In this document: piece after piece, positions 1-3,057 of the stretch | Numbering within the stretch: position 1 is the first letter of the stretch | Layout: each line of letters opens with the position of its first letter | Source: Candidatus Latescibacterota bacterium | Lineage (GTDB): Bacteria > JAAXHH01 > JABIQT01 | Direction of reading: 5' to 3' | NCBI GenBank assembly: GCA_018667995.1 | Contig: JABIQT010001092.1 | Coordinates: 1 to 6,464 of the forward strand | DNA: 6,464 nt | Program-made: the position numbers and the translations under genes | Notes under the pieces: model-generated | Seen by the model: the letters and a program-made list of their open reading frames with translations, nothing else | Told to the model about the DNA's origin: nothing | Database searches by the model: none

Positions 1-1165
1 ACAGAGGTCGAGCCGCCGTAAACGCAACGCGCCCGATCTCATTGAGCGCCAACCGGTCCGTCGACTGTTTACGTTGTGTCTCAATGTCAACTCGATATAA
101 CAATTGATCCATTCGCACGTTGACGGCCTGTGTGGCGTGCTTCAGAATGTATCGGCTATTGGTTTCCATGGGTGTTTCACTCATCCAGATCACCATCGCT
201 TCAAAGCGAGACTCCGCGCGCGGTAGGTTCTTAGCGTGTACGATCATATCGCCTCGACTCACATCTACTTCATCCTCCAATCGTACAGAGACGGACATGG
301 GCGGAAATGCGACCTCAATCTCACCATCGTACGTATCGATTGACTTTATCCGAGTACGAATTTCACCAGGCAGGATGAGTACCTCGTCGCCCGTCCGCAT
401 AATGCCAGATGACACTGTGCCCGCATAGCTACGAAAATCTTGGTTCGGCCTTATCACATACTGGACCGGAAACCTTAGATCTATCAAGTTGCGATCGCTG
501 AGGAATTGTACGTCTTCGAGAACTTCCAGGATAGTCGGACCGTGATACCAGGCCATCCGATCCGTCATTTCAACTACGTTGTCTCCGTGCAAGGCGCTGA
601 TTGGGACAAACCTGATATCGCCGATATTAAGTTTTGCTGCGTAGTTCACAAAAGACTGCTTAATCTCTTCGAAGACCGACTCATTGTATTCAACGAGATC
701 CATCTTGTTTACAGCTACAACGATATGATTGATGCCAAACAGCGAACTAATGAAAGCGTGCCGCTTCGACTGTGTGAGCAGACCCTTACGAGCATCTATC
801 AAAACGATGGATAGATTTGCGGTTGAAGCTCCTGTAGCCATATTGCGCGTATATTGGTCATGCCCTGGGGTATCGGCTATTATAAACTTTCTTCCCGGCG
901 TTGAGAAATACCTGTAAGCCACGTCAATCGTAATGCCCTGTTCGCGCTCGGCTTTCAGCCCGTCCAAAAGAAATGCAAGGTCCGGATCGCTGTTATTCCT
1001 GCGCAATTTCTCCAGGGACGATAACTGATCTTCATAGATATTCTTAGAATCAGTCAGCAGACGCCCGATCAAGGTAGACTTCCCATCGTCTACGCTTCCG
1101 GCTGTACTTATACGAAGGAGTTGCTTTGATGTGTTCTCTTTCACAAAAGAATGAATGTCTGCCAT
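1..1165 (-). CDS. cysN: Sulfate adenylyltransferase large subunit, GTPase (CysN or N-terminal part of CysNC), partial
   Basis: The frame is open from an ATG at 1165 to the window edge: 388 residues seen, C-terminus missing. CysN is the regulatory GTPase of ATP sulfurylase; GTP hydrolysis drives CysD to make APS from sulfate and ATP in the cytoplasm. Translation shows the EF-Tu-like G domain: P-loop GSVDDGKST at residues 23-31, the region around T79 (EQGITID), DTPGH at 98-102, NKMD at 153-156, and a PISAL stretch at 188-192. The second beta-barrel domain follows from about residue 232, with RPNQDFRSYAGT starting near 239, which is CysN-like rather than EF-Tu-like. It lies 58 bases downstream of cysD, so the two are probably one operon. 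No clear Shine-Dalgarno precedes the ATG; the start is chosen because it gives a normal-length leader before the P-loop. E. coli CysN is about 475 residues, so at least 80-90 are missing; a fused APS kinase (CysC) domain beyond the edge cannot be excluded. Confidence 0.96.
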   Translation of the reverse strand, partial: MADIHSFVKENTSKQLLRISTAGSVDDGKSTLIGRLLTDSKNIYEDQLSSLEKLRRNNSDPDLAFLLDGLKAEREQGITIDVAYRYFSTPGRKFIIADTPGHDQYTRNMATGASTANLSIVLIDARKGLLTQSKRHAFISSLFGINHIVVAVNKMDLVEYNESVFEEIKQSFVNYAAKLNIGDIRFVPISALHGDNVVEMTDRMAWYHGPTILEVLEDVQFLSDRNLIDLRFPVQYVIRPNQDFRSYAGTVSSGIMRTGDEVLILPGEIRTRIKSIDTYDGEIEVAFPPMSVSVRLEDEVDVSRGDMIVHAKNLPRAESRFEAMVIWMSETPMETNSRYILKHATQAVNVRMDQLLYRVDIETQRKQSTDRLALNEIGRVAFTAARPL

Positions 1166-1223: not shown

Positions 1224-2129
1224 CTAGAAGTAACCTTCGCGCTTCTTCATCTCCATGGATCCCTCCTGATCATGGTCGATGATCCTCGTAGATCGTTCGG
1301 ATATCCGAACTGTCATCATCTCTTCAATGATATCAGTAACTGTGATTGCCTTGGATCGGACAGCGCCGGTACATGGTGAACAGCCGAGCGTCCTAAAACG
1401 GCACATCACGCGCTTCGGTTTTTCGCCAGGTAACAGACGCGTGTTCGCATCCGCGGGTATTAGTAGTTCGCTGCGGACCACCACCTGCCGCTCTTCGGCG
1501 AAATACATCGGCACCACGGGGATATTCTCTTGGTGGATGTACATCCAGATGTCAAGTTCGGTCCAGTTTGAAAGTGGGAATACCCGAATGGACTCTCCCT
1601 TCGCGACGCGGCAGTTATACAGATTCCAGAGTTCGGGGCGTTGGTTTTTGGGGTCCCATTGGCCGAACTCATCTCTGAATGAGAATACCCTTTCCTTAGC
1701 TCGAGACTTCTCCTCGTCTCTTCGCGCACCTCCGATGGCGGCATCATAATTACCGGTATTCAGGGCGTCCAACAATGCAGATGTCTTGAGAAGACCGCAG
1801 CATCGTTGTGTCCCAAGTACGAATGGACTGGTACCGTTAGCGATGGCTTCTTCGTTACGGTGAACGATCAGATTCGCACCCAATTCCGCCGCCATCCTAT
1901 CGCGAAATGCATACATATCCTTGAACTTGAATCCTGTGTCAACATGAAGAAGTGGAAAGGGGAGTCTCTGCGGATAGAATGATTTCTGCGCGAGGCGAAG
2001 CATTACCGCGGAATCCTTGCCAACCGAGTACAACATGACTGGTCGTTCGAACTCGGCTGCAACTTCGCGCATAATATGCATGCTCTCAGCTTCTAATTGC
2101 TGCAGATGGGTAACGCTGAAATTCGGCAC
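1224..2129 (-). CDS. cysD: Sulfate adenylyltransferase small subunit (CysD), with an APS-reductase-like cysteine set
   Basis: 301 residues, the normal length for the family. CysD is the catalytic subunit of heterodimeric ATP sulfurylase, adenylating sulfate to APS with CysN. It belongs to the PAPS-reductase/adenine nucleotide alpha hydrolase group. Visible hallmarks are the PP-loop SVGKDS at residues 35-40, HVDTG at 62-66, [15 protein letters not shown] at 133-147, [16 protein letters not shown] at 157-172, FPLSNWTE at 184-191 and the typical C-terminus MKKREGYF. The GTG start at 2129 is supported by AGGAG at 2134-2138, four bases upstream, and by homology ([10 protein letters not shown] close to the N-terminus). 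It is first in a cysD-cysN pair. The odd point is four cysteines: C110-C111 in QRCCGLLKT and C250/C253 in LGCSPCTG. E. coli CysD has neither pair as I recall it. They sit where APS reductases carry their [4Fe-4S] ligands. The reductase's C-terminal catalytic ECG motif is absent, so CysD remains the call. Confidence 0.97.
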
Positions 2130-2444: not shown

Positions 2445-2960
2445 CTACAGAGCTGGCTCAACCACTTTGACGGCGGATCGTGGCCGAATTTGCTGGGTCC
2501 AGCGAATTAGATCGAGATCCTCGCTACGTGAGGCGTCACGCGAGTCAAGAATCGACTGGACCTGCTCTTCCTGAAATCGCTCGACCATGATAGATAGCCC
2601 GTCACAATCACTGACGTGGGGCAATACTTGTCGAATCAGCTGTACCGCCTCTTTGACTTTTGCATCTGTCAATACATCCTCACCCGCAATATCAATGAGT
2701 CTGTGAGCGATGCCGATAGCCCGATCGTGATCCGCTAAGAGATGCTCGATATAATCTGAGCCAAATATCTCTGTGAGAGCCGGATACAAAGACTCCTCTT
2801 CATAGCGAAAGTGCGGGCCTGTGAGTACGGCCGTTCTGCCCAGAAGCGTATTGATCGCTTCCCTATCCCGGGCCTGAAACGCGTCGATTAGATCGAGCAG
2901 TGCGTCCCGTATATCGCGGTGCTCTTCTCGGAATATGGTGCTGAATTCATCAGCTAACAT
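2445..2960 (-). CDS. Hemerythrin-like HHE cation-binding domain protein
   Basis: 171 residues, cytoplasmic, no signal peptide or membrane segment. The pattern is that of a four-helix hemerythrin/HHE domain: H14 in EEHRDIRD, H50 and E54 in PHFRYEEESLYP, H78 in LLADHDRAI, H115 in LPHVSDCD. These would hold a non-haem di-iron centre used for O2 or NO sensing or binding, or for iron/redox protection. The second HxxxE is altered: the residue at +4 of H115 is C119, while D120 at +5 matches the H-x4-D spacing of classical hemerythrins. The start at ATG 2960 is fixed by a near-perfect AAGGAGG at 2969-2975, eight bases upstream. A GTG 27 bases further up stays in frame, but the binding site then lies inside the gene. 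The last 40 or so residues are not clearly part of the domain. It stands alone, with its own promoter candidate and a following stem-loop. The exact role cannot be told. Confidence 0.88.
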   Translation of the reverse strand: MLADEFSTIFREEHRDIRDALLDLIDAFQARDREAINTLLGRTAVLTGPHFRYEEESLYPALTEIFGSDYIEHLLADHDRAIGIAHRLIDIAGEDVLTDAKVKEAVQLIRQVLPHVSDCDGLSIMVERFQEEQVQSILDSRDASRSEDLDLIRWTQQIRPRSAVKVVEPAL

Positions 2961-2968
2961 GGATGCGT

Positions 2969-2975
2969 CCTCCTT
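2969..2975 (-). promoter_or_regulatory. Strong Shine-Dalgarno deciding the hemerythrin-like start
   Basis: AAGGAGG on the minus strand, eight bases before ATG 2960. It matches the anti-SD almost fully and lies inside the longer GTG-start reading frame, which argues for the shorter protein. Confidence 0.85.
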
Positions 2976-3057
2976 GGGCTGGTTCACTCTACCCAGCTAA
3001 CATGGAACTGTTTGGCACCTGAATGTGCCGGAATTTCGAAGCGCTGCATTAGTGGCA

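Follow-up and report, generated by a model that had tools for sequence, protein, structure and literature searches.

We analyzed a 6,464-nucleotide stretch of DNA from a Candidatus Latescibacterota bacterium (contig JABIQT010001092.1; hereafter the window), in which an open reading frame with a GTG start encodes CysD as a 301-amino acid product. This product scores 471.5 bits against TIGR02039 (cut-off, 396.6 bits), with its residues 9–301 aligned to positions 1–294 of the 294 in the model, and 172 bits against PF01507. The gene for CysN, whose best family match is a CysN-APS kinase fusion model, directly follows cysD on the same strand, and a cluster of Opp/Dpp-type ABC transporter genes and a gene for a hemerythrin-domain protein lie upstream. 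The features discussed here are as follows.

1224–2129, minus strand: cysD, small (catalytic) subunit of ATP sulfurylase, four-cysteine type (TIGR02039, PF01507)
2–1165, minus strand: cysN, GTPase subunit, truncated at the contig end (TIGR02034, 524 bits, over the cut-off; NF004035, 596 bits)
2445–2987, minus strand: gene for a protein with a hemerythrin HHE domain (PF01814), located upstream of cysD
2010–2027, minus strand: PP-loop SVGKDS of CysD, residues 35–40, the ATP site
1797–1802, minus strand: codons for the adjacent cysteines C110-C111 (RCCGLLKT)
1785–1787, minus strand: codon for K115, a lysine that follows the cysteine pair by four residues
1371–1382, minus strand: codons of C250-S-P-C253 (GCSPCTG)

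The window CysD shares with canonical CysD (TIGR02039; 1ZUN from Pseudomonas syringae) the full-length family match, the fold (VIA-align Z 24.3–25.8), the PP-loop, the catalytic residues, and the adjoining cysN. Alignment of the CysD sequences examined showed that Ser-35, Gly-37, Lys-38, Asp-39, and Ser-40 of the PP-loop, as well as Arg-136, Arg-137, Glu-139, Glu-140, Arg-143, Lys-145, Arg-147, and Trp-189, are invariant. The same genome contains a second cysD copy (L156, G000:C439), which is 82% identical to the window copy, carries all four cysteines, and is followed by a cysN with an APS kinase domain. Further, the genome encodes an APS reductase of the iron-sulfur type (TIGR02055, 263 bits; cut-off, 235.3 bits), the gene for which lies beside one of the nitrite/sulfite reductase type and one for a uroporphyrinogen methyltransferase (siroheme). 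We also note that the hemerythrin HHE-domain gene upstream of cysD could point to a connection with oxygen or iron, although the ∼300 bases separating the two genes speak against a single operon.

The window CysD contains six cysteines (Cys-110, Cys-111, Cys-173, Cys-243, Cys-250, and Cys-253). An earlier note on this DNA had singled out C110-C111 and C250/C253 as the iron-sulfur ligand set of APS reductases. Direct reading of the codons confirmed these four residues, and the surrounding sequence blocks that the note had listed are likewise all present. Canonical CysD, in contrast, has His or Tyr, Thr, and Leu in place of Cys-110, Cys-111, and Cys-253, and further differs from the window protein at Ala-95, Leu-114, Leu-120, Asp-121, Gly-156, and Gln-157. 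The CysD of E. coli, which the note had correctly described as lacking the complete set, reads HTDIMKT and GCWPLTG, and the three extra cysteines are absent from the CysD of Bacteroides and Paenibacillus as well.

Tandem cysteines are a hallmark of the [4Fe-4S] site of APS reductase. The APS reductase of Pseudomonas aeruginosa (2GOY) reads HGECCGIRKIEPL and IGCEPCT, with cysteines at chain positions 139, 140, 228, and 231, and the 7LHR APS reductase reads HECCRLRKVVPL and IGCAPCT; the latter is the actual reading of the Mycobacterium tuberculosis CysH, which the note had given as RCCGLRK. In multiple alignments, the cysteine pair and the CxxC of CysD fell in the same columns as those of CysH, with C110-C111 aligned to C139-C140 of 2GOY, and Lys-115 of CysD corresponds to Lys-144 of 2GOY, a residue that links the cluster to the substrate sulfate in APS reductase. 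A profile alignment of canonical CysD with CysH placed His-Thr on the CC pair and Leu on the second cysteine of the CxxC; since canonical CysD aligns likewise without the extra cysteines, the correspondence does not depend on matching them. When the cysteines of the four-cysteine set were masked, a global profile alignment still found the CC column but misplaced the second (C-terminal) block. The window protein thus shares with assimilatory APS reductase (CysH; TIGR02055; 2GOY, 7LHR/7LHS) a homologous CC and CxxC, the lysine four residues past the pair, and the fold (Z ∼19). However, it scores only 51.5 bits on TIGR02055, retains the ATP-binding PP-loop and the CysN partner, and, as the note had stated, is devoid of the C-terminal ECG motif with the catalytic cysteine, its C terminus resembling that of other CysD proteins. 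The TIGR02055 score, the missing ECG motif, and the neighboring cysN rule out a misnamed CysH.

We predicted the structure of the window CysD with AlphaFold2 (37 sequences; pLDDT 82.1, pTM 0.84). The best solved matches of the model were the CysD of 1ZUN (Z 24.3), followed by the APS/PAPS reductases 2goy_B (Z 19.6) and 7lhs_B (Z 17.7). Cys-110 and Cys-111 fall close to where a predicted helix (residues 107–126) begins, and Cys-250 and Cys-253 lie in the C-terminal segment. Because the alignment to 1ZUN stops at model residue 210, the CxxC segment is unseen in the canonical crystal structure. The protein was also folded with its sequence ending exactly at Cys-253 (pLDDT 82), and this second model was aligned structurally. 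Residue 253 paired with residue 231 of 2goy_A (Z 19.3, root mean square deviation 2.6 Å) and with residue 226 of 7lhs_B (Z 19.1, root mean square deviation 2.4 Å), in both cases the second cysteine of the CxxC. This pairing, which is of residues and not a Cys-Cys distance, supports convergence on the cluster site in the predicted model.

To describe how the cysteines are distributed, CysD relatives were gathered by searching named genome contigs, 16 genomes of the window's phylum, and 396 Acidobacteriota genomes for similar proteins, a sampling that was not systematic for Bacillota, Bacteroidota, Chloroflexota, and archaea. The count was confined to 143 distinct sequences that were 280 residues or longer and left out any selected by pattern. 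All of Cys-110, Cys-111, Cys-250, and Cys-253 were present in 57 sequences, Cys-250 only in 72, and Cys-253 only in 11, and the remaining 3 had four cysteines with the first pair shifted (Cys-107 and Cys-110 in two and Cys-110 and Cys-114 in one, plus C250/C253). None of the 143 sequences had two or three of the four cysteines. Random loss of individual cysteines in closely related proteins, which the note had named as evidence against its proposal, was thus looked for in these sequences and not seen, and the all-or-none state rules out cysteines arising by chance. In contrast, Cys-80, Cys-173, and Cys-243 are not consistently conserved and come and go among relatives. Lys-115 is invariant in all 163 four-cysteine and canonical sequences and is replaced by Gln in the 11 sequences with Cys-253 only. 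In the window's phylum, every CysD gene found in the 16 genomes examined encodes the full set. We also observed that some Acidobacteriota have a four-cysteine and a canonical CysD together (L155 and L135 in G026, L139 and L140 in G312, and L125 and L134 in G047).

Four-cysteine CysD is known from the window's small phylum, Acidobacteriota, and Pseudomonadota. A DNA pattern search (CCxxLKT ... GCxxC[TS][GA]), in which the counts are lower bounds because only one particular cysteine codon is matched, returned at least 37 of 398 Pseudomonadota genomes, with the reversed-pattern control in one listed genome, and, for that codon, none of 396 Actinomycetota and none of 150 Campylobacterota genomes. 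The Pseudomonadota proteins are 64–70% identical to the window protein, which is above most canonical CysD. The plasmid and phage collections yielded no named sequence closely related to the Pseudomonadota form. Among IMG/VR contigs, the pattern identified one true CysD; a second viral match (L207) had no match to CysD and was rejected. On the former contig (L206:576–8815), the four-cysteine cysD and cysN lie beside glycosyltransferase and sugar-nucleotide dehydratase genes, a context suggesting that a sulfate donor is supplied for surface glycans.

With respect to operon context, cysN follows cysD in most of the sampled four-cysteine loci with a clear open reading frame call. The Acidobacteriota operon is often cysD-cysN-cysH, with a CysH of the iron-sulfur type, and the Pseudomonadota operon runs sulfite reductase, transporter, cysH, cysD, and cysN. 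On the strength of its intact catalytic residues and the adjoining cysN, the window protein is assigned as an ATP sulfurylase subunit, of a kind usually encoded in an assimilation operon, and it is very likely, judging from these sequences, that four-cysteine CysD is a working assimilatory enzyme subunit. We also came across an unusual gene in the Pseudomonadota operons: L256:3690–6377 and ten similar genes encode proteins of ∼880–910 amino acids in which a radical-SAM-like domain (PF04055, just below the cut-off) is fused N-terminally to a sodium:sulfate symporter (PF00939). In the L256 operon, the siroheme sulfite reductase (L256:1384–3723) has a C-terminal TusA sulfurtransferase domain.

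A CysD tree, unrooted and built with the cysteine columns left out, contained a single branch (support, 99/92) that parts all 41 canonical CysD from the four-cysteine, rearranged, and Cys-253-only sequences. The Cys-253-only group, which has QT for KT and GDxTCT in place of the CxxC block, forms one clade nested within the four-cysteine side, and we therefore read it as a later loss of the site. Since the tree can be explained by the set having been gained or lost about once, plus one later loss, the many sequences do not amount to many independent tests. Overall, the all-or-none conservation in a clade of three phyla, the profile alignment, and the superposition of Cys-253 on two solved APS reductases uphold the view that this CysD carries the iron-sulfur ligand set of APS reductase. 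We note that the lineage without Lys-115 and Cys-250 (SRNxxQT and VGDxTCT; L086 and L145–L154), found in Acidobacteriota and Streptomyces, keeps Cys-253 as a third kind of CysD and may differ in substrate or regulation.

Rooting with CysH as the outgroup gave conflicting results. One tree placed the root inside canonical CysD, and in another canonical CysD formed one side with a support of 93; constraining the four-cysteine rows together was likewise not rejected (p-AU 0.766). As neither root is rejected, ancestral retention and a single later gain are both compatible with the trees. We regard it as possible and parsimonious that four-cysteine CysD has kept an ancestral link between CysD and CysH, as the note had suggested, retention being the more parsimonious because a gain would require three cysteines to have arisen anew at exactly the positions seen in CysH. 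A bolder scenario, which we put forward tentatively and consider less probable than its alternatives combined, is that CysD and CysH descend from a shared iron-sulfur PP-loop enzyme that handled APS, that the four-cysteine clade keeps the ancestral cluster and textbook CysD has lost it, and that the first step of sulfate assimilation would have begun as an iron-sulfur-dependent reaction.

We think it probable that this cysD and its neighbor cysN specify a GTP-driven ATP sulfurylase whose catalytic subunit, CysD, belongs to a clade that binds a [4Fe-4S] cluster at the APS reductase site. Of the note's proposal that this CysD may bind such a cluster, the homologous four-cysteine site stands, and cluster binding stays a prediction, albeit a strong one. 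The cluster would sit between the core helix (Cys-110, Cys-111, and Lys-115) and the C-terminal segment and would pin the latter onto the PP-loop core beside Lys-115. By analogy with APS reductase, its most likely functions would be to order the sulfate/APS pocket and to stabilize the fold. Its role would be structural and electrostatic, with no electron transfer, adenylyl transfer having no redox step. Canonical CysD, with His-Thr and Leu at the extra positions, works without a cluster, and the QT/GDxTCT lineage appears to have lost it again.

The sequence itself fits a [4Fe-4S] cluster and a Zn(Cys)4 site alike, and the four cysteines might hold a structural zinc ion that fastens the C-terminal segment, without any iron-sulfur chemistry. 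Zinc is common at four-cysteine sites made up of two close pairs, the CxxC plus CxxC arrangement of two sequences (L128 and L129) would suit it, and a purely structural role is plausible given that canonical enzymes work without the site. However, tandem cysteines are unusual at zinc sites, and in 57 of the 60 four-cysteine sequences gathered by similarity they stand exactly at the ligand positions of APS reductase with the same lysine after them, and we regard zinc as quite unlikely. The idea that the cysteines are a lineage-specific relic of common descent, with no metal or redox role, would accord with a tree in which the set need have been gained or lost only about once. We consider it very improbable, as there is no partial loss down to ∼56% identity across three phyla, a rearranged form has been kept in three sequences, and the other cysteines of the same proteins come and go.

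The note had further proposed that a cluster would give redox or oxygen control of sulfate activation, a claim that we found to be unsupported. Such control could take the form of a thiol/disulfide switch or of a degradable cluster acting as an oxygen or iron sensor. The four cysteines do appear or vanish together, an iron-sulfur site would be oxygen-labile, and the Acidobacteriota with both CysD types (G026, G312, and G047) could use each under different conditions. But we found no regulatory partner or consistent anaerobic context, the genes are often in ordinary assimilation operons beside cysH, which itself requires an iron-sulfur cluster, and the ligands match those of a four-ligand site. 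A switch of this kind seems to us unlikely.

CysDN-type ATP sulfurylase is taught as a cofactor-free enzyme. If the preferred reading, a [4Fe-4S] cluster in four-cysteine CysD, is correct, sulfate activation in a widespread branch of the family would be iron-dependent and potentially oxygen-sensitive, and the non-redox role of the APS reductase cluster would become testable in a second, chemically different enzyme, for which the cluster-free CysD homologues provide natural controls. Four-cysteine CysD also offers a handle on the divergence of CysD and CysH. Annotation pipelines name the four-cysteine and canonical forms identically, and no description of an iron-sulfur CysD was found in the literature searched, mainly open-access papers; as far as that literature shows, four-cysteine CysD is an undescribed branch of a known enzyme family. 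TtuA, NcsA, LarE, TtcA, and DndC share the ATP-using PP-loop fold, and some or all of their members carry a [4Fe-4S] cluster. Clusters of the TtuA/NcsA type are held by three cysteines, leaving a free iron site, and are used for sulfur transfer (PMC10067955), whereas the window CysD has four candidate ligands and an adenylyl-transfer reaction. One member of this fold group, the DNA phosphorothioation sulfurtransferase DndC (L245, G000:C1138; TIGR03183), is also encoded in the genome that carries the window.
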